Assembly: GCA_023667395.1 (NCBI GenBank)
Contig: JAMPAC010000001.1
Location: 386,858 to 424,625 of the forward strand
Source of the DNA: Blautia sp.
Lineage (GTDB): Bacteria; Bacillota; Clostridia; Lachnospirales; Lachnospiraceae
Length of the DNA stretch: 37,768 nucleotides
Direction: 5' to 3'
Positions 11,391 through 19,476 of this stretch are shown here, one piece after another (positions within the stretch are counted from its first letter, which is position 1; every line of letters starts with the position of its first letter). The notes under the pieces were generated by a model, which was not told the DNA's origin, did no database searches, and was given only the letters and a program-made list of their open reading frames with translations. The translations under genes and the position numbers were made by a program.

Positions 11391-13451
11391 CTACATCCAG
11401 AAAGCGATCAGGTACATAGCCTTGGAAAACAGATCGGGACGGGTTTCCATCAGGGAGTGCCCCGTATCCACAAAGAAGAACATTCCCTGGAACATTACCT
11501 CCGCAACAAAACAGAGTAATAATAAAGTGGTGAACCATTTTTTCATATATGGTTTCATCATTTTTTTTGTGGAAAAAAGGATCCAGACGGAAAGCAGCGC
11601 AGCCAGCATGATAAACAGTGAAAAGTCATTATAATACCGCCACAGGATGCCGGCCATTTCCGTGTCTGCCACCAGGATTGCCAGGGCGGAAATCAGGCTG
11701 CCAATGGATATCATGCAGGGAACCTTATGGGCGTTGTCAAAGTGCTTCCGCAGGAAGATCGCAGGAAGCGCCAGCCATGGAAACAAATGTGCCGCGAATA
11801 TGCCGCCGGGGGTATACTCCTGGATCGTGACGCCCATATATTGTGAGCGGGTATACAATGCTTCCACAAAGGGAAATTTAGTGATCAGCCTGACAGGCTG
11901 GAACAGGTAGACAAAAATGCCGAAAGGAATCCGCCCCCATGCCCAGCCGCGGTATCTCATGTCATTGGTGGTCAGATTGTAGGAAGCGCCAAAGTCAAAG
12001 ACCGATCCAAAGCGGGCCTGGTTGTAGTACATTAAAAAGGCGGCCACGGCCAGGATAGGGACAGCGGCGGCCAGAACGGCACGCCTGCCCTCTTTTGTCC
12101 GGTAGAATTCCCTGGAGAAAAGGTACCGGCCAAAGAGGATTACCGGAAAGACCATGAACAGCAGCAGTTGGGGGCGGCATCCCGCCGTAAGAGCGGTCAG
12201 GAATGCCCCTGCCGCCAGATACTTCAGGGAGATATGGTCTTTTTCATCCGCCCGGAGAAAGCACCATAATCCCAGCATACCCATGGCCAGTCCCGTGGCG
12301 ATGGGTACGCTGTACATATCAGGACGTTTTGCCATATAGATCAGGTTGCTTCCCATAAGGAAAGTTTCCATGGTCAGGAACCATGCGCCAAGGGAAAGCC
12401 TGGGGAACCATTTTTTGATCGACTCATGCAGGACGCCTATGATCCCCAGGAGCAATAGGGCCAGCGCAAGGAACATGGCGATGTGGTTGGGAAGGGCGCC
12501 GCCTGTCAGGATATGATATGGGAAATAAAACAACAGGACGGGGACTACGCCGAAATAGACATAGTACTTTCCGTCAAAGTAAGCCGTATCCCAGAGATAA
12601 GTCGCATTGTTCCTGATCAGGATATCCTCCCGCTGATCCAGGTCATAGGGGTTGACCATGCTGCTGAAAGCCTCCGCAGGTTCCTCCAGTAAGGCCATGA
12701 ACCCTTCCCGGAAAGATTCCGCCAGTTTCTGATACTGTCGGTGATGTTCCGGTATGTTCCATGTGCAGTCGGGATCCAGCCCCGCCAGTTTCCAGAAGAC
12801 GGCCAAATGCGCCAGAAACAGGAAAGCCAGCATTGCCGCCCGCAGCGGCGCGGAGATCTTCAGGTAGGCTATGTTGTAAATCGGTGAGGACGGGCGGAAA
12901 AGATACAGAAAGCACAGTATGAAAAACAGTCCCGTCATGCGCAGGAGCGAAAAGGACAGGGGAATGACGGGATTCAGGCGGATATCCATGGAAACGGTGG
13001 AACCGGCGGGCAGGAGCGGAAGAAAGCGCAGGCCGGTGCAGTTTCCGTACAGATGATAGATGAGGTAACGGCTTTTGGGCTGATTGGACCAGAGATCCTT
13101 GACAGGCAGGGAATATTCAAAGCTGTGTCCTGCGTCCGTGACATACTGATAGACGGAGAAGACAGTGGGCAATGTGGAATCCCCGCCATGGACGGTAACA
13201 TTAAAATATACGGATCTCAGATCCAGGTCAAGTTCCGGGAGGATGATGGAATAGTCGCCGTCACCGACGGAATATGTGCCGTCCTCATTGGGAATGTACG
13301 CATCCCCCAGGGTGATCAGTCCGGGAAAAACCTCATGGTTGGGCAGGGTCTGCCAGTGCTTATAATTGAACAGAAAAAGTTCCGCCAGAAAGCTGACTGC
13401 CAGGAATAAAATATAGGGGATCAAGTGTTTGTTGTCCGGTTTCCCGCTCAT
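11391..13451 (-). CDS. Large polytopic membrane protein, GT-C-like
   Basis: The 686-aa product starts with one membrane helix (LIPYILFLAVSFLAELFLF), then a soluble segment of about 130 residues outside the membrane, and then roughly ten or more further helices, for example AAMLAFLFLAHLAVFW, HIAMFLALALLLLGIIGVL, AVLAAAVPILAVAAFLMYY and FMLAALLSVWILFS. This topology resembles GT-C type glycosyltransferases and related uncharacterised Lachnospiraceae proteins that act at the outer face of the membrane. EDILIRNNATYLWDTAYFDGKYYVYFGVVP looks like a conserved loop. No donor-binding motif can be confirmed by eye. AAAGGA lies about 12 bases before the ATG. Confidence 0.7.
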   Translation of the reverse strand: MSGKPDNKHLIPYILFLAVSFLAELFLFNYKHWQTLPNHEVFPGLITLGDAYIPNEDGTYSVGDGDYSIILPELDLDLRSVYFNVTVHGGDSTLPTVFSVYQYVTDAGHSFEYSLPVKDLWSNQPKSRYLIYHLYGNCTGLRFLPLLPAGSTVSMDIRLNPVIPLSFSLLRMTGLFFILCFLYLFRPSSPIYNIAYLKISAPLRAAMLAFLFLAHLAVFWKLAGLDPDCTWNIPEHHRQYQKLAESFREGFMALLEEPAEAFSSMVNPYDLDQREDILIRNNATYLWDTAYFDGKYYVYFGVVPVLLFYFPYHILTGGALPNHIAMFLALALLLLGIIGVLHESIKKWFPRLSLGAWFLTMETFLMGSNLIYMAKRPDMYSVPIATGLAMGMLGLWCFLRADEKDHISLKYLAAGAFLTALTAGCRPQLLLFMVFPVILFGRYLFSREFYRTKEGRRAVLAAAVPILAVAAFLMYYNQARFGSVFDFGASYNLTTNDMRYRGWAWGRIPFGIFVYLFQPVRLITKFPFVEALYTRSQYMGVTIQEYTPGGIFAAHLFPWLALPAIFLRKHFDNAHKVPCMISIGSLISALAILVADTEMAGILWRYYNDFSLFIMLAALLSVWILFSTKKMMKPYMKKWFTTLLLLCFVAEVMFQGMFFFVDTGHSLMETRPDLFSKAMYLIAFWM

Positions 13452-13522
13452 ATGTAAAGTAATCCTTTCGGTATCTGTCGTTATTCAGTTTATCATATCT
13501 TATAAAAAATTAAAAGTTTGAA

Positions 13523-13552
13523 TTGACTTTTCCGGTGGAATTATGTTATATT
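13523..13552 (+). promoter_or_regulatory. Promoter of the polyamine operon and its leader RNA
   Basis: TTGACT (13523-13528) and TATATT (13547-13552) are separated by 18 bases. Initiation would fall at about 13557-13561, exactly where the first strand of the structured leader begins, about 285 bases before speD. Confidence 0.75.
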
Positions 13553-13558
13553 TTGAAC

Positions 13559-13805
13559 GTGTGGAAAACAGATAGTTTGGAGTCTTCCATGCAAATATTT
13601 TGGCAACGGTGTTGCCTTATTGATGGAGTTAGAAGCTCAAATTTTATAAGTTGGTCACTATAAACCGGTGCTGATGCACACCTAACTTGTGAAACGGTCA
13701 ATAAGAGTAGTAAAAGTAAAATATTTGCTATATAGACTCTAAAAACCACATATCTGTTTCTTTGATTTTCAGGACAAGTGACGGTAGGCGTACTTGTCTT
13801 TTTTT
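13559..13805 (+). ncRNA. Structured leader RNA candidate upstream of speD (riboswitch-like or sRNA)
   Basis: Between a promoter and an intrinsic terminator lies a 200-base segment that folds on inspection. Stems are AAACAGATA/TATCTGTTT (13566-13574 with 13751-13759), GGAGTC/GACTCT (13579-13584 with 13735-13740, one G-U), a perfect 11-bp GCAAATATTTT/AAAATATTTGC (13591-13601 with 13718-13728), hairpin GGCAAC-GGT-GTTGCC (13602-13616), TTATTGA/TCAATAA (13617-13623 with 13698-13704), ATAAGTTGG/CCTAACTTGT (13646-13654 with 13682-13690), and hairpin GTGC-TGAT-GCAC (13668-13679). No open frame of note lies inside. ACTTGT at 13685-13690 is identical to the 3' arm of the terminator and could pair with its 5' arm, which would allow switching. 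I do not recognise the class. The alternative is a stand-alone small RNA. Confidence 0.65.
13773..13805 (+). terminator. Intrinsic terminator in the speD leader
   Basis: GACAAGT (13773-13779) pairs with ACTTGTC (13792-13798), extended inside by ACG/CGT, and is followed by seven T. It lies 40 bases before the speD start, so full-length mRNA requires read-through. Confidence 0.8.
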
Positions 13806-13845
13806 GTTACCGTAAGAACCCTCTGGGATTCACCTGGAGATAGAA

Positions 13846-14616
13846 ATGAGGACAGCCATGAGCGAGAAGATTTCCCTGTACGGATTCAATAACCTGACCA
13901 AGTCGTTGAGTTTTAACATTTATGACGTCTGTTACGCAAAGACGCAGCGCGAGCAGAGAGACTACATTGCCTATATTGACCAGCAGTATAATTCCGAACG
14001 TCTGGTCAAGCTGCTGACCAACGTGACGGATATGATCGGCGCCCATGTGCTGAACATATCCAGCCAGGATTATGAGCCTCAGGGCAGTTCCGTGACGATC
14101 CTCATCGGCGAGAAGAGCAAGATCCCTGCCGGCGATACCACGGTGGCGCATCTGGACAAGAGCCATATCGCGGTGCATACTTATCCTGAGTATCATCCGG
14201 AAACCTGCCTGGCCACGTTTCGGGTGGATATCGATGTGACCACCTGCGGGGAAATCACGCCCCTGTCCACGCTGGACTATCTGATCGGATCCTTTGACTC
14301 GGATATCATCACCATGGACTACCGGGTGAGAGGGTTTACAAGGGATCTGGGCGGACACAAGCTGTTCATGGATCACCGGATCACGTCCATCCAGGATTAT
14401 ATTGCGGGAGAGACGCGGCAAAAGTATGACGCCGTGGACATCAATGTGTATGAGGCAAATATTTTTCACACGAAAATGCTGATCAAGGATATCGATCTGC
14501 AGAATTATCTTTTTAACAGCGACGTCTATGAACTGCCGCCCAGGACAAGGCTGGAGATTATGGATAACCTGCGGAGAGAGATGATCGAGATATTCAGCGG
14601 GAGAAACGTGTATTGA
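13846..14616 (+). CDS. speD: S-adenosylmethionine decarboxylase proenzyme (long bacterial form)
   Basis: The 256-aa product is closely related to the Escherichia coli type Spe[40 protein letters not shown], the pyruvoyl-forming processing site [18 protein letters not shown] (serine in KSH), [16 protein letters not shown] and [15 protein letters not shown]. The proenzyme cleaves itself to give the pyruvoyl cofactor and then makes decarboxylated SAM, the aminopropyl donor for SpeE, whose gene is two further along. A GGAG 6 bases before ATG 13846 supports this start; ATG 13858, with GAGGA, is equally possible. Expression should depend on read-through of the upstream terminator. Confidence 0.95.
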
Positions 14617-14649
14617 CCGCAGGGCGGTTTGGCGAAAGGCAGCAAAAGT

Positions 14650-16110
14650 ATGGGTCGATATGATCAGGAGAGAGCCCCCATCTATGAGGCGTTGGAAGAA
14701 TTCAGGAAAAACAGGATTGTTCCCTTTGACGTGCCGGGGCACAAGAGAGGCCGGGGCAATCCGGAACTGATACGGCTTCTGGGGCAGCAGTGCGTGGGGA
14801 TCGATGTGAATTCCATGAAACCCCTGGACAATCTGTGTCATCCCGTTTCCGTGATCCGCGAGGCGGAGGAGATGGCTGCGGAAGCGTTCGGCGCGGCATA
14901 CGCGTTTCTGATGGTGGGGGGAACGACTTCTTCCGTGCAGAGTATGGTGCTCAGCGTCTGCAAAAAGGGCGACAAGATCATTCTGCCCAGGAATGTCCAC
15001 AGAAGTGTGATCAATGCGCTGGTCTTAAACGGCGCCATTCCCATCTATGTCAACCCGGAGATGGACAGTAAGCTTGGCATTGCCCTGGGCATGAAAGTGT
15101 CCCAGGTGGAAAAGACCATCCGGGAAAATCCTGACGCGAAAGCAGTATTGGTGAATAATCCCACTTATTATGGAATCTGTTCCGACCTGCAAAGCATTGT
15201 GAAGCTGGCGCATGCCCATGGGATGAAAGTCCTTGTGGACGAAGCCCACGGAACCCATTTTTATTTCGGGGAGGATATGCCCGTCTCCGCCATGGAGGCA
15301 GGGGCGGATATGGCATCCGTCAGTATGCATAAGTCCGGCGGAAGCCTGACCCAGAGTTCCTTTCTGCTCACGGGGCCGAACATGCATCCCGGATATGTGC
15401 GGCAGATCATTAACCTGACCCAGACAACCAGCGCGTCCTACCTGCTTCTGGCAAGTCTGGACATTTCCAGAAGAAACCTGGCGCTGCGCGGGAAAGAGGA
15501 ATTCCGCAAGGTGACGGCGCTGGCGGAATATGCCAGGGGAGAGATCAACAGGATCGGCGGATATTACGCGTATACGTCGGAACTGATCAACGGGGACAGT
15601 ATTTATGATTTTGACAAGACCAAACTGACGGTGAATACGCTGGGGATCGGGCTTGCCGGGATTGAGGCGTATGATATCCTGCGGGACGAGTATGATATCC
15701 AGATGGAATTGGGGGATATCGCCAATGTTTTGGCCTATATTTCCATTGGCGACAGGGAGCGGGACATAGAACGCCTGATCAGCGCCCTGGTGGAGATCCG
15801 GCGGAAATACAGCAGGGACAACACGGGAATGTTCACACAGGAGTATATAGAGCCAAAGGTGGCTGTTTCCCCCCAGAACGCGTTTTACGCGGAAAAGGAA
15901 TCTCTTCCGCTGATGGAGACGGAGGGACGCATCTGCAGCGAATTTGTGATGTGTTATCCGCCTGGGATCCCGATCCTGGCGCCGGGAGAGGAGATCACGG
16001 CGGATATCTTGGAATATATCGCCTACGCAAAAGAAAAAGGCTGTTCCATGACGGGGCCTGAGGATGCGGAAATAAAGAGGCTGAACGTGCTAAAGGAGGT
16101 CTGGGCCTGA
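14650..16110 (+). CDS. speA: Arginine/ornithine/lysine decarboxylase (PLP, fold type I)
   Basis: The product (486 aa from ATG 14650, GAAAGG 10 bases upstream; TTG 14629 is a weaker start) is a short-form Orn/Lys/Arg decarboxylase of the Bacillus SpeA type. It has RIVPFDVPGHKRGRGNPEL, FLMVGGTTSSVQSM, NPTYYGICSDL, VDEAHGTHFYFGEDMP and the PLP-lysine motif SVSMHKSGGSLTQSS. The C-terminal part has EYIEPKVAVSPQNAFY and PPGIPILAPGEEIT, usual for this family. Arginine to agmatine is the likeliest reaction by family, but ornithine or lysine cannot be excluded. No agmatinase or agmatine deiminase gene is in the operon, which makes the substrate question important. Confidence 0.85.
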   Translation: MGRYDQERAPIYEALEEFRKNRIVPFDVPGHKRGRGNPELIRLLGQQCVGIDVNSMKPLDNLCHPVSVIREAEEMAAEAFGAAYAFLMVGGTTSSVQSMVLSVCKKGDKIILPRNVHRSVINALVLNGAIPIYVNPEMDSKLGIALGMKVSQVEKTIRENPDAKAVLVNNPTYYGICSDLQSIVKLAHAHGMKVLVDEAHGTHFYFGEDMPVSAMEAGADMASVSMHKSGGSLTQSSFLLTGPNMHPGYVRQIINLTQTTSASYLLLASLDISRRNLALRGKEEFRKVTALAEYARGEINRIGGYYAYTSELINGDSIYDFDKTKLTVNTLGIGLAGIEAYDILRDEYDIQMELGDIANVLAYISIGDRERDIERLISALVEIRRKYSRDNTGMFTQEYIEPKVAVSPQNAFYAEKESLPLMETEGRICSEFVMCYPPGIPILAPGEEITADILEYIAYAKEKGCSMTGPEDAEIKRLNVLKEVWA

Positions 16111-16142
16111 TGTGCACGGAACCGGAATAGGAGGTGTTTCTT

Positions 16143-17003
16143 ATGGAACTGTGGTTTTCAGAGCCGCATACGCCGAATGTCAAATTGTCGATCCGGGTGG
16201 ACAGGCAGTTATACAGCGGGCAGAGCGAACTTCAGCAGATTGAGGTGTTCGAATCGCCGGAATTCGGACGGTTTCTGGTGCTGGACGGATATATCATGCT
16301 GACGGAGAAAGACGAGTTCATCTACCATGAGATGATCGTCCATGTGCCCATGGCGGTACATCCCAACGTGAAAAAGGTGCTTGTCATCGGCGCCGGGGAC
16401 GGCGGTGCGGTGAGGGAACTGGTGCGCTATCCGGAGATCGAGCGGATCGACCTAGTGGAGATCGATGAGGAAGTGATCAAGGTCAGCATGGATTACCTTC
16501 CCAGAGTGTCCTGCGAACTGCGCAATGAGAGGGTGAAGATCCATATTGAGGACGGCCTGAAATTTGTGCGCTCGAAAGAGGACGAATATGACCTTATCAT
16601 CGTAGATTCCACCGACCCCTTTGGACCCGGCGAGGGATTGTTTACCAAGGAATTCTATGGAAACTGTTATAAGGCGCTGAGGGAAGACGGCATCATGGTA
16701 AACCAGCACGAGAGCCCTTTTTACGAGACTGACGCCACGGCCTGTATGCGGGCCCACAAACGGATCGTGGAGAGTTTCCCCATCAGCCGCGTCTACCAGG
16801 CACATATCCCCACTTATCCGTCGGGGCACTGGCTGTTTGGTTTTGCTTCCAGGAAGTACCATCCGGTTCATGATATGGATGCGGAGCGATGGCTGGAGAG
16901 AGGGCTGGAGACGAAATATTACACGCCGAGACTTCATGCGGGAGCGTTCTGTCTGCCCGCTTATGTGGAGAAACTGCTGCGAAAAGTGGAAGTACATGGA
17001 TAA
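16143..17003 (+). CDS. speE: Spermidine synthase (aminopropyltransferase)
   Basis: The start at ATG 16143 follows AGGAGG by 8 bases and gives 286 aa. The protein has the aminopropyltransferase signatures: VFESPEFGRFLVLDGYIMLTEKDEFIYHEM, VLVIGAGDGGAVRELVRYP for decarboxy-SAM binding, VEIDEEVI, and the catalytic IVDSTDPFGPGEGLFTKEFY. The late YPSGHWLFGFAS segment is also typical. It would transfer the aminopropyl group made available by SpeD to putrescine, or possibly to agmatine, as known for some bacterial homologues. It lies 32 bases after the decarboxylase and 22 bases before the next gene. Confidence 0.93.
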   Translation: MELWFSEPHTPNVKLSIRVDRQLYSGQSELQQIEVFESPEFGRFLVLDGYIMLTEKDEFIYHEMIVHVPMAVHPNVKKVLVIGAGDGGAVRELVRYPEIERIDLVEIDEEVIKVSMDYLPRVSCELRNERVKIHIEDGLKFVRSKEDEYDLIIVDSTDPFGPGEGLFTKEFYGNCYKALREDGIMVNQHESPFYETDATACMRAHKRIVESFPISRVYQAHIPTYPSGHWLFGFASRKYHPVHDMDAERWLERGLETKYYTPRLHAGAFCLPAYVEKLLRKVEVHG

Positions 17004-17025
17004 ACGAACGAAAAGGAGAGGGAAA

Positions 17026-18288
17026 ATGGCTAAAATATTGATCGTTGGCTGCGGCGGCGTTGCCTCCGTGGCGATTCAGAAATGCGCGGGGAAAGCGGAC
17101 GTATTTTCGGAAATCTGTATTGCCAGCCGCACGGTGAGCAAGTGCGACGCGATGAAAGCGAAACTGGAAGAGCAGGGAACCGGAGCCGTGATCACTACCG
17201 CAGCCGTGAATGCGGATGATGTGGATGACCTGATCCGGCTGATCAAAAAGGAACAGCCCAGGGCAGTCTTGAACCTGGCGCTGCCCTACCAGGACCTGAC
17301 CATCATGGACGCCTGCCTTGCCTGCGGCGTGGATTATATCGACACTGCCAATTATGAGGCGGAAGATACGGAGGATCCCGAGTGGAGGGCGGTTTATGAG
17401 AAACGCTGCAAGGAGAAAGGATTTACGGCATATTTTGATTATTCCTGGCAGTGGGCGTATAAGGAACGTTTCGAAAAAGCGGGGATCACGGCGCTTTTGG
17501 GCAGCGGATTTGACCCCGGCGTGACCAGCGTGTTTTCGGCCTATGCGCTGAAGCACTATTTTGACGAGATCCACTATATTGATATCATGGACTGCAACGG
17601 CGGCGACCATGGTTACCCCTTTGCCACGAATTTTAATCCTGAGATCAATCTGCGGGAGGTTTCCGCCAACGGTTCCTATTGGGAGGACGGCCGCTGGGTG
17701 GAGACAAAACCCATGGAGATCAAACGGGAATATGATTTTGCCCAGGTGGGAAAGAAAGATATGTATCTGCTGCACCATGAGGAGATCGAATCGCTGGCGC
17801 AGAACATTCCCGGCATCAGGAGGATCCGGTTCTTCATGACGTTCGGGCAAAGTTACCTGACCCATATGAAATGCCTGGAAAATGTGGGTATGCTGCGTAC
17901 CGATCCGGTATGGTTTGACGGAAAGGAGATCGTGCCGATCCAGTTTTTGAAGGCGTTGCTGCCCGATCCCGCTTCCCTGGGTCCCCGCACGGTGGGCAAG
18001 ACCAACATCGGCTGCATCTTTACCGGCGTAAAGGACGGCAAAGAGAAGTCCGTTTATATTTACAATGTCTGCGATCATCAGGAGTGTTATCGGGAACTGG
18101 GCTCCCAGGCGATCTCCTACACCACGGGCGTTCCCGCAATGATCGGCGCCATGCTGGTGATGAATGGCGTCTGGAAGAAGCCCGGCGTGTTCAACGTGGA
18201 GGAATTCGACCCCGATCCCTTTATGGAGGCTTTGAACGAATACGGCCTGCCCTGGGTGGTGGAGGAGAATCCGGTATTGGTTGAGTAA
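17026..18288 (+). CDS. Carboxynorspermidine/carboxyspermidine dehydrogenase (saccharopine dehydrogenase family)
   Basis: ATG 17026 is preceded by AAAGGAGAGGG and gives 420 aa starting MAKILIVGCGGVASVAIQKC, a Rossmann nucleotide-binding motif. SRTVSKCDAM, NLALPYQDLTIMDACLACGVDYIDTANYE, LLGSGFDPGVTSVFSAYAL and DIMDCNGGDHGYPFATNFNPEINLREV match the CANSDH branch of saccharopine dehydrogenases. Known members condense aspartate semialdehyde with putrescine or diaminopropane using NADPH. The adjacent decarboxylase gene completes the pathway. Longer frames reading in from 16837 only reflect the absence of stops inside speE. Confidence 0.9.
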   Translation: MAKILIVGCGGVASVAIQKCAGKADVFSEICIASRTVSKCDAMKAKLEEQGTGAVITTAAVNADDVDDLIRLIKKEQPRAVLNLALPYQDLTIMDACLACGVDYIDTANYEAEDTEDPEWRAVYEKRCKEKGFTAYFDYSWQWAYKERFEKAGITALLGSGFDPGVTSVFSAYALKHYFDEIHYIDIMDCNGGDHGYPFATNFNPEINLREVSANGSYWEDGRWVETKPMEIKREYDFAQVGKKDMYLLHHEEIESLAQNIPGIRRIRFFMTFGQSYLTHMKCLENVGMLRTDPVWFDGKEIVPIQFLKALLPDPASLGPRTVGKTNIGCIFTGVKDGKEKSVYIYNVCDHQECYRELGSQAISYTTGVPAMIGAMLVMNGVWKKPGVFNVEEFDPDPFMEALNEYGLPWVVEENPVLVE

Positions 18289-18315
18289 AGGGAAAACAGG
18301 ATAAAGGGGACTGAT

Positions 18316-19476
18316 ATGACTTTTTCAGAACTGCCCACACCCTGCTATGTGGTGGACGAAGCGCTGATCAAAAAGAATCTGAATATTTTAAGGGGCGTGA
18401 TGGAGCGCACGGGAGCGCATATTCTGCTGGCGCAGAAAGCTTTTTCCATGTATGCGCTTTATCCCCTGATCGGGCAATATCTCCGGGGGGCTGCGGCCAG
18501 CGGCCTGTATGAGGCAAGGCTCTGCGCGGAAGAGATGGCAGCGCCCCTGGCGCGCCGGGGGATCAGGTGTGAGAACCATATTTTTTCCCCCGCCTATCGG
18601 GAAGCGGATTTTGCGGAGATCTTGGGTTACTGCGACCATATCGTCTTCAATTCCTGGAAGCAGGCGGAAACGTTTGGGGCAAGGGCGAAGGCGGCGGGAA
18701 AAAGTATCGGACTGCGCATTAATCCGGAGCGCTCCACACAGGAGGGACATGCCATTTACGATCCCTGTGCCCCCGGTTCCCGGCTGGGAGTGACGAAAGA
18801 GAACTTTGTAAGGGCGCGGGAAGAGCAGATATCCCTTTTGGACGGCCTGCATTTCCATACCCTCTGCGAGCAGGATTCGGATGCCCTTGAGATAACGCTG
18901 GACGCGGTGGAGGAAAAGTTTGGCGGATATCTTCCTCAAATGAAGTGGATCAATTTCGGCGGCGGGCATCATATCACCCGTGAGGGCTATGACATCCCCC
19001 GGCTGGAAAGATGCATACGGAGGATGCAGGAAAAATATGGCCTGGAGGTCTATCTGGAGCCCGGGGAAGCGGTAGCGCTGAACGCAGGGTTCCTGGTCAC
19101 CACCGTGCTGGAAACGCAGGAGGCGGACATGGGGATCGCCATACTGGATACCTCCGCAGCCTGCCATATGCCGGATGTGCTGGAGATGCCATACAGGCCG
19201 CCCCTGCAGGGGAGCGGAAGACCTGGGGAGAAGCCGTACCTTTACCGTCTGGGGGGACCCACCTGCCTGGCGGGGGATGTGATCGGGGCGTATGCCTTTG
19301 ATCAGCCTCTGCGGGAGGGAGACAGGCTGGTGTTTGAGGATATGGCGATCTACTCCATGGTGAAAAATAATACCTTTAACGGAATGCCCCTGCCTTCCAT
19401 CGTGCTGAAGCGGGACAACGGGAACTACAGTATGGTCAGACAGTTTGGTTACGAAGATTTTAAGAGCCGCCTGTAA
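18316..19476 (+). CDS. nspC: Carboxynorspermidine/carboxyspermidine decarboxylase
   Basis: The 386-aa product is an alanine-racemase-fold (fold type III) PLP decarboxylase of the NspC family. It begins LPTPCYVVDEALIKKNL and has the PLP lysine in ILLAQKAFSMYAL, ASGLYEARLCAEEM, LRINPERST, GLHFHTLCEQ, NFGGGHHITREGYD, YLEPGEAVALNAG and late LGGPTCLAGDVIGAY. It decarboxylates carboxynorspermidine or carboxyspermidine made by the preceding enzyme. It is the last gene of the operon and is followed within 20 bases by a terminator. GAAAGGGGA-type purines precede the ATG. Confidence 0.93.
   Translation: MTFSELPTPCYVVDEALIKKNLNILRGVMERTGAHILLAQKAFSMYALYPLIGQYLRGAAASGLYEARLCAEEMAAPLARRGIRCENHIFSPAYREADFAEILGYCDHIVFNSWKQAETFGARAKAAGKSIGLRINPERSTQEGHAIYDPCAPGSRLGVTKENFVRAREEQISLLDGLHFHTLCEQDSDALEITLDAVEEKFGGYLPQMKWINFGGGHHITREGYDIPRLERCIRRMQEKYGLEVYLEPGEAVALNAGFLVTTVLETQEADMGIAILDTSAACHMPDVLEMPYRPPLQGSGRPGEKPYLYRLGGPTCLAGDVIGAYAFDQPLREGDRLVFEDMAIYSMVKNNTFNGMPLPSIVLKRDNGNYSMVRQFGYEDFKSRL

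Follow-up and report, generated by a model that had tools for sequence, protein, structure and literature searches.

Convincing natural polyamine riboswitches are few and further classes are expected, according to the available excerpt of the paper that describes a spermidine riboswitch that is a close SAM-I variant (PMC10853860). As set out in that excerpt, this variant resides in the leaders of speE, speB and ldcC, is known from 13 examples and acts as an OFF switch by termination (PMC10853860). Rfam holds a further family, RF02440, which is named SpF59_sRNA or 'ldcC RNA'. The ldcC motif reportedly goes back to a 2017 paper by Weinberg et al. in NAR; we take the SpF59 of Rfam to be the pneumococcal F59, and SP0916 to be the lysine decarboxylase gene cadA. 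In the available portions of the pneumococcal literature, F59 of Streptococcus pneumoniae TIGR4 occupies 869510-869591 between SP0915 and SP0916 (PMC3395615) and its coordinates fall inside those of SN20 (869478-869791), a transcriptionally active region upstream of SP0916 for which a promoter and a terminator are predicted and which has no family assigned in Rfam (PMC2887815). The putative lysine decarboxylase gene cadA lies immediately upstream of aguA, aguB, speE and nspC, as given in the accessible part of PMC6727871. Sixteen pneumococcal sRNAs have been reclassified as RNA switches, and the main text of that study, as far as available, mentions neither F59 nor a decarboxylase nor polyamines (PMC6212727). 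Full-text searches, partial in their coverage, returned nothing on 'ldcC RNA' or 'ldcC motif', and the larger RNA described below may already be published; with the same partial coverage, ldcC combined with riboswitch and motif led only to the SAM-I variant paper and a Corynebacterium one, and 'SpF59' only to papers that are unrelated by title and opening of the abstract. Neither ldcC nor polyamine occurs in the available parts of PMC11109978, PMC7266159 and PMC9971707.

The locus studied here lies in a 37,768-nt stretch of Blautia DNA, the whole of which we call the window, and precedes a polyamine operon on the forward strand (13846-19476). The operon begins with speD, encoding S-adenosylmethionine decarboxylase (13846..14616; TIGR03331), which has a GGAG at 13836-13839 and a further possible start at the next in-frame ATG, 13858. 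There follow an Orn/Lys/Arg decarboxylase gene (14629..16110; PF01276 and PF03711, and no NCBIfam over its cut-off among the 25 matches listed), the spermidine synthase gene speE (16134..17003, assigned by protein family search), a carboxynorspermidine synthase-like gene (16837..18288) and nspC, encoding carboxynorspermidine decarboxylase (18316..19476; TIGR01047). The synthase-like protein has saccharopine dehydrogenase Pfam domains and scores 411 bits with NF043000, below the cut-off of 800; its true start is probably near 17035, because the family match begins at residue 67 and the listed TTG start at 16837 overlaps speE. Both triamine routes are held in this operon, aminopropyl transfer through speD-speE and the route through carboxynorspermidine synthase and nspC, with the Orn/Lys/Arg decarboxylase between them. 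For the divergent gene upstream (11391-13451, reverse strand, 686 aa), NCBIfam and Pfam searches at E 0.001 gave nothing.

Between the two transcription units the order is that proposed by the first-pass annotation and can be read directly from the DNA: promoter, structured segment, terminator with seven T, speD. The promoter (13523..13552, forward strand) consists of a -35 element TTGACT at 13523-13528, an 18-nt spacer and a TG-extended -10 element TATATT at 13547-13552. Three promoter-type sites occur in the region, against 1.8 expected from shuffles, which makes the promoter call weak when taken alone; of the 19 leaders of the window's lineage (the window among them) that come with sufficient upstream DNA, 18 have a promoter of the type TTGAC..TG-TATAnT ahead of the RNA (L040, with too little upstream DNA, stands outside this count). 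The leader RNA extends on the same strand from 13559, an approximate transcription start inferred from the promoter, to the end of the T tract at 13805. It is strongly structured, as had been claimed: the minimum free energy of 13558-13806 is -73.7 kcal/mol, the mean of 200 dinucleotide shuffles is -53.5 (sd 4.8), and none of the 200 is as low (z -4.2). Conservation is high as well, with a DNA identity of 87-94% over roughly 185-227 nt in the 14 closest members of the genus. The intrinsic terminator (13773..13805) pairs GACAAGT 13773-13779 with ACTTGTC 13792-13798, ahead of seven T at 13799-13805; its 12-nt loop escaped a first scan confined to loops of 3-8 and was recovered, in agreement with folding, by a wider one. 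No tRNA-like element was found.

The RNA is predicted to form the following helices, all on the forward strand. The closing helix P0 (13567..13758) joins AACAGATA 13567-13574 to TATCTGTT 13751-13758 and, further in, GAGTCT 13580-13585 to AGACTC 13734-13739. P1 (13591..13728) is the stem of 11 perfect pairs already noticed at the outset, GCAAATATTTT 13591-13601 with AAAATATTTGC 13718-13728. Four hairpins, P2 (GGCAAC/GTTGCC, 13602..13616), P4 (GAG/CTC, 13626..13638), P6 (GGT/ACC, 13653..13666; its fourth consensus pair is C-A in the window) and P7 (GTGC/GCAC, 13668..13679), accompany the longer-range helices P3 (13617..13704), formed by TTATTGAT 13617-13624 and GTCAATAA 13697-13704 and with G-G in the window at its ninth consensus pair, and P5 (13642..13694), the switching helix, formed with U-G wobbles by TTTTATAAGT 13642-13651 and ACTTGTGAAA 13685-13694. 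P8 (13705..13739), drawn by RNAalifold, pairs GAGT 13705-13708 with ACTC 13736-13739 around the conserved AGTAAAAGTA segment and the 3' strand of P1.

The core was aligned from 69 of 89 distinct segments (91 aligned; near duplicates, truncated and poorly aligned ones were removed by eye). Its consensus reads GGCAAC..GUUGCC, then UUAUUGAUUGAG..CUC, UUUUAUAAGUUGG, ACUUGUGAAAC, GGUCAAUAAGAGUAGUAAAAGUA and UUUGCUAUAUAGACUCU, with 23 invariant columns. Pairing is found in 94.6% of 2677 cells, as against 39-45% when the partners are slid by 1-3 columns. Changes on both sides occur in 13 of 40 core pairs, a number reached in none of 500 shuffles (mean 7.5), and are located in P2 (5 of 6 pairs), P4 (2 of 3), P6 (2 of 4) and P7 (4 of 4; at 79.8% of cells paired the lowest of the helices). 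The most conserved helices, P3, P5 and P8, with 97.3%, 98.4% and 98.2% of cells paired respectively, show no such change among the 69 sequences.

P0 and P1 were assessed by exchanging flanks between loci. The leaders were collected by means of a sequence pattern, which picked out 124 of 170 loci; removal of near duplicates left 95. In 92 of them a locus's own P1 flanks pair at -9.26 and swapped ones at -7.35 (0 of 200 permutations as good); the corresponding values for the outer P0 helix are -22.1 and -18.1 (0 of 120). With swaps limited to up to eight nearest relatives (80 leaders) the effect persists (P1 p=4e-4, P0 p=2e-5), and it is modest per locus: in a cruder first test the own pairing fell within the best 5% of 40 swaps for 34% of 94 leaders. 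The 5' boundary of each leader was set by the pattern, which gave the wrong type to the window itself (L001) in the cruder test and to L051, L068 and L071 in the flank-swap test; such errors should weaken the signal rather than produce one. Variation of the P1 strands is visible in an alignment from which no counts were taken (60 of 65 leaders, after removal of L061, L109 and three window-lineage loci mis-parsed as RF02440 type, and with L123 trimmed). The first-pass annotation had named a lack of covariation in homologues as grounds for abandoning its reading; the core helices and P0/P1 do covary. RNAalifold applied to the window lineage (18 leaders) replaces P0/P1 by a 5' hairpin GUAUGGAA/UUCCAUGC and by P8 with an inner hairpin, a fold in which 1 of 54 pairs changes on both sides; these elements might be alternative, ligand-free partners of P0/P1. 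Three divergent leaders of the same genus (L025, L026, L027) keep P5 and CAAUAAGAGUA and differ in the 5' half and the inner P8 segment.

The link between leader and terminator was a guess from one sequence: ACTTGT at 13685-13690, in P5, equals the terminator 3' arm at 13792-13797 and can pair with ACAAGT at 13774-13779, and all three motifs are present at these positions. The candidate antiterminator (13680..13785, forward strand) comprises this pairing and that of ACC 13680-13682 with GGT 13783-13785. Terminators were detected in 83 of 95 leaders (none in the scan for the other 12), all 83 being retained even though weak hairpins were picked in several loci (e.g. L091, L105, L152, L161). Across these 83, the strand from the 3' half of P7 to ACUUGU pairs with the 5' arm of its own terminator at a mean of -13.4 kcal/mol, compared with -10.6 for swapped arms (0 of 400 as good) and -6.5 for shuffled arms (0 of 200), and 72 leaders have five or more consecutive pairs with the ACUUGU segment, against a shuffled mean of 37. 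Paired with the terminator 3' arm as a control, the same strand gives -7.44 versus -7.02 (11 of 400); this slightly low value in a between-locus permutation is a sign of shared ancestry. When arms were exchanged only among the eight nearest relatives, a locus's own antiterminator was better in 54 loci and worse in 29 (p=0.002), and the 3'-arm control gave p=0.99. At the level of single bases the covariation is uneven: among 71 ACUUGU leaders, 36 have T and 15 have C behind CA(A/G)G, the C mismatching the first A of ACUUGU, and the motif is absent in 16. Judged by this comparative evidence, the pairing of ACUUGU with the terminator 5' arm is a conserved antiterminator, and the early guess has gained the backing of many loci.

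The energetics place the window towards the terminated state. Median energies of the P5-P6-P7 domain, the antiterminator and the terminator are -15.6, -13.4 and -17.9; the window has -15.1, -9.7 and -12.8, its antiterminator being weaker than the median (fold energies of the antiterminator segments were left out, the segments being unequal in length). When the six-pair antiterminator is imposed on the window's fold in a nested model, the penalty is about 14 kcal/mol as long as the terminator 3' arm has yet to be transcribed (-47.6 vs -61.8) and about 22 kcal/mol afterwards (-51.2 vs -73.7), because the antiterminator excludes P3, P1 and P0. As it crosses these helices, the nested model overstates the energy gap. 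On this model termination may be the default in the window, and switching would have to involve kinetic control or an open P0/P1. That the window might thermodynamically prefer the antiterminator was considered and dropped, the model favouring the reverse.

What is this RNA? A search of the window against Rfam release 15 yields no family at gathering score, and 13480-13880 searched at E up to 10 gives three matches, all at chance level and none of them RF02440; no unrelated known family, which would have spoken against the first reading, was encountered. RF02440 is nevertheless close at hand: when 16 homologous loci were scanned with Rfam, 13 matched it over its full 54 positions, and in relatives its domain (UGACCACC..GGUUAAGGCCAUACGGACAGCCGGGUCAACUGCCGA) sits between P1 and P2, an insert that the window is without. 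R1, a covariance model built on the core (146 positions, 36 pairs), matches once per genome: in the window's class (Clostridia; 35 of 222 genera) 48 of 391 genomes have it and in its phylum 24 of 398, where four genomes are common to both sets and some probably coincide with R1 training species; RF02440 matches 40 and 17 of the same class and phylum genomes. In 54 of the 55 genomes with RF02440 it stands directly 5' of R1 on the same contig and strand, -19 to 29 nt apart, and in the exception (G343) the RF02440 match is below the family cut-off. The Rfam model therefore covers a fragment of a larger RNA. RF02440 is absent from 13 of the 67 genomes that carry R1 besides the window, and from the window's own genome, an absence that is uncertain for single genomes, as the stricter filters of the R1 and RF02440 scans lose weak matches. 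The window core reaches 145.9 bits with R1, in whose training set it was included; independently of R1, blastn matches the window leader to RF02440-bearing leaders, for instance that of locus L060 (90% over 134 nt). The core of roughly 150 nt has no match in Rfam release 15 in the window, 16 relatives or L060. From these comparisons RF02440 amounts in practice to one subdomain within a larger RNA, of which the window leader is a lineage variant that has no 5' domain; since the window is without it, the domain is probably dispensable for switching. The initial remark that no known class was recognised holds for Rfam matches of the window, and fails in that the leader is a variant of an RNA held in part as RF02440. 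SN20 is of a length that would fit the larger RNA, the comparison covering length alone.

The RNA travels with polyamine genes. A DNA search of 99 genomes (61 of the window's genus, its own included) gave a match at E 5e-7 or better in 27, all of the same genus, and blastn of the leader matched 96 of 110 loci at E up to 1e-3. Absence of the segment upstream of orthologous operons had been named as an argument against the reading; when the best 80 of 595 SpeD places were taken, R1 preceded the gene in 71, many of them used in training R1, and one of the nine without a match (L046) has only about 150 nt of upstream DNA. In 50 of 50 R1 loci examined (L111-L140 and L151-L170, drawn from 68 R1 genomes; the window is one of the 50), the longest frame starting at most 700 nt downstream is a polyamine gene, which bears out the polyamine context claimed at the start: speD in 21, an Orn/Lys/Arg decarboxylase in 15, carboxynorspermidine synthase in nine and a PotA-like ABC ATPase in five. 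The first three calls are best blastp matches to the window proteins; two of the PotA-like ATPases were scanned and both exceed the cut-off of NF043075 (spermidine/putrescine transporter ATPase), the other three being assigned by likeness. The potA-like genes follow the RNA in L118, L122, L129, L130 and L136, and L118, L122 and L129 have an extra hairpin (ACCGCA..TGCGGTT) between the RF02440 domain and P2. Among 15 window-type leaders (L002-L016) speD is next in 13, and the other two reach the contig end. Ten further leaders of the genus (L017-L019, L021-L027) are followed by a decarboxylase, with no speD in the stretch; several have the RF02440 domain, and the 5' half of L025-L027 is divergent. 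Seven distant loci (L091, L092, L096, L104, L110, L128, L161) have a AATAAATAA motif between RNA and terminator. An exact 20-nt core pattern had no match in viral contigs and one record in a plasmid collection, a 2.7-Mb Paenibacillus cellulosilyticus replicon in which, by eye only, an RF02440-like domain and then a frame resembling carboxynorspermidine synthase can be made out; spread by phage or plasmid was set aside on these counts.

With promoter, RNA, terminator and gene in this order, a conserved sequence, covarying helices and antiterminator, and polyamine synthesis or uptake genes downstream, the leader is likely to be a cis-acting transcription-attenuation RNA, most plausibly a riboswitch that reports polyamine sufficiency and belongs to the family of RF02440. 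A conserved, covarying aptamer-like domain lies upstream of related genes, as in riboswitches, and the expression platform is by covariation mutually exclusive with it, the energy model indicating a strong default to termination. We infer direct binding of a small molecule, with a polyamine as the ligand (spermidine or a related triamine being the first candidate) and binding turning the operon off. In the ligand-bound, folded state P0 and P1 would close the domain, P3 and P5/P7 would form and the ACUUGU strand would be kept in P5; with ACUUGU sequestered, the terminator would form and the polyamine operon would be off. In the ligand-free, unfolded state the P7/P5 3' strand (ACC..ACUUGU) would pair with the terminator 5' arm (ACAAGU..GGU), and the arm being occupied, the terminator would be blocked and the operon transcribed.

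Attenuators of like shape can be under protein or peptide control, and the switch might be read by a protein or by ribosome movement instead of a small molecule. An ATG at 13589 in the window, after a GGAG at 13579, indeed opens a frame of 24 codons; among 13 window-lineage leaders, however, this frame varies from 8 to 24 codons with several different endings, so that a leader peptide was rejected, and the long, nearly invariant multi-helix core is more than attenuators of that kind generally require. We regard this explanation as unlikely. Much the same holds for a riboswitch that senses SAM, decarboxylated SAM, lysine, arginine or another molecule of the pathway, an explanation that draws on the speD genes downstream in 21 of 50 loci and on the kinship of the known spermidine riboswitch with SAM-I, as given in the excerpt of PMC10853860, and that appears improbable: the RNA also precedes carboxynorspermidine synthase, potA-like and decarboxylase genes, whose common product or cargo is a polyamine, and no SAM-riboswitch family matches the window or L060 at E up to 10. 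Polyamine, SAM and decarboxylated SAM had been offered as guesses from context; polyamine is favoured over the other two, because the same RNA precedes potA-like and decarboxylase genes.

The label 'SpF59 sRNA' raises the prospect of a trans-acting RNA made from its own promoter and terminator, and the available text of two surveys does catalogue pneumococcal F59/SN20 as an sRNA (PMC3395615, PMC2887815). The RNA is likewise flanked by a promoter and a terminator here, yet in all 50 loci examined it is collinear with and upstream of a polyamine gene, and its antiterminator and the neighbouring terminator covary, a feature for which an RNA acting in trans would have no use; we give this possibility very little credence. 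Of the original alternatives, riboswitch or new small RNA, the cis-acting structured leader with a terminator has stood and the trans-acting sRNA has found no support. Equally remote appears an ordinary structured 5' UTR whose folding plays no part in switching and whose terminator is constitutive: the nested model strongly favours the terminated fold in the window, but the unpaired segments are conserved in 69 diverse sequences and the covarying pairing is exclusive with both P5 and the terminator. The polyamine-sensing riboswitch thus remains the preferred reading. Its widest form, which we advance tentatively and at slightly less than even odds, is a widespread polyamine riboswitch class unrelated to SAM-I, with an aptamer core of about 150 nt that has no match in Rfam release 15, controlling synthesis and uptake across the phylum, and represented in the window clade by a natural form that lacks the 5' domain.

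Gut bacteria of this group make polyamines, and the RNA is a candidate control point for their polyamine output. One RNA, found in about one eighth of the sampled Clostridia genomes, precedes genes for polyamine synthesis as well as one for polyamine import, and has a covarying antiterminator, so that ligand tests are direct. The findings also suggest that what is catalogued as an 'sRNA' of 54 nt is one part of a longer leader: the RNA of the window shares the adjacent core and the gene neighbourhood with RF02440, and where the Rfam model covers 54 nt, the window copy has the roughly 150-nt core, P0/P1 and the terminator without the 54-nt domain. Other structured RNAs near polyamine genes compare as follows, as far as the available parts of the sources go. 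The odc1 and potE motifs are likewise candidate structured RNAs before polyamine-related genes; the former is treated as belonging to a gene control element that includes a uORF and the latter lies about 200 nt from its gene, and both were compared with the window RNA only through the content of Rfam (PMC8632094). The speF motif likewise stands in the leader of a gene for ornithine decarboxylase, with no metabolite identified; unlike the window RNA it is alphaproteobacterial, and as far as it is in Rfam it matches neither the window nor 16 relatives (PMC11477304). The SAM-I variant spermidine riboswitch was rejected as an identity for this leader, with no SAM-I match in the window or L060 (E up to 10) or in 16 homologous loci (gathering score). 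As a system it is nonetheless alike in being the leader of polyamine genes and in exchanging a terminator for an antiterminator, and it differs in its reach: 13 examples are described in the excerpt (PMC10853860), and the RNA of the window occurs in 48 of the 391 class genomes and 24 of the 398 phylum genomes sampled.
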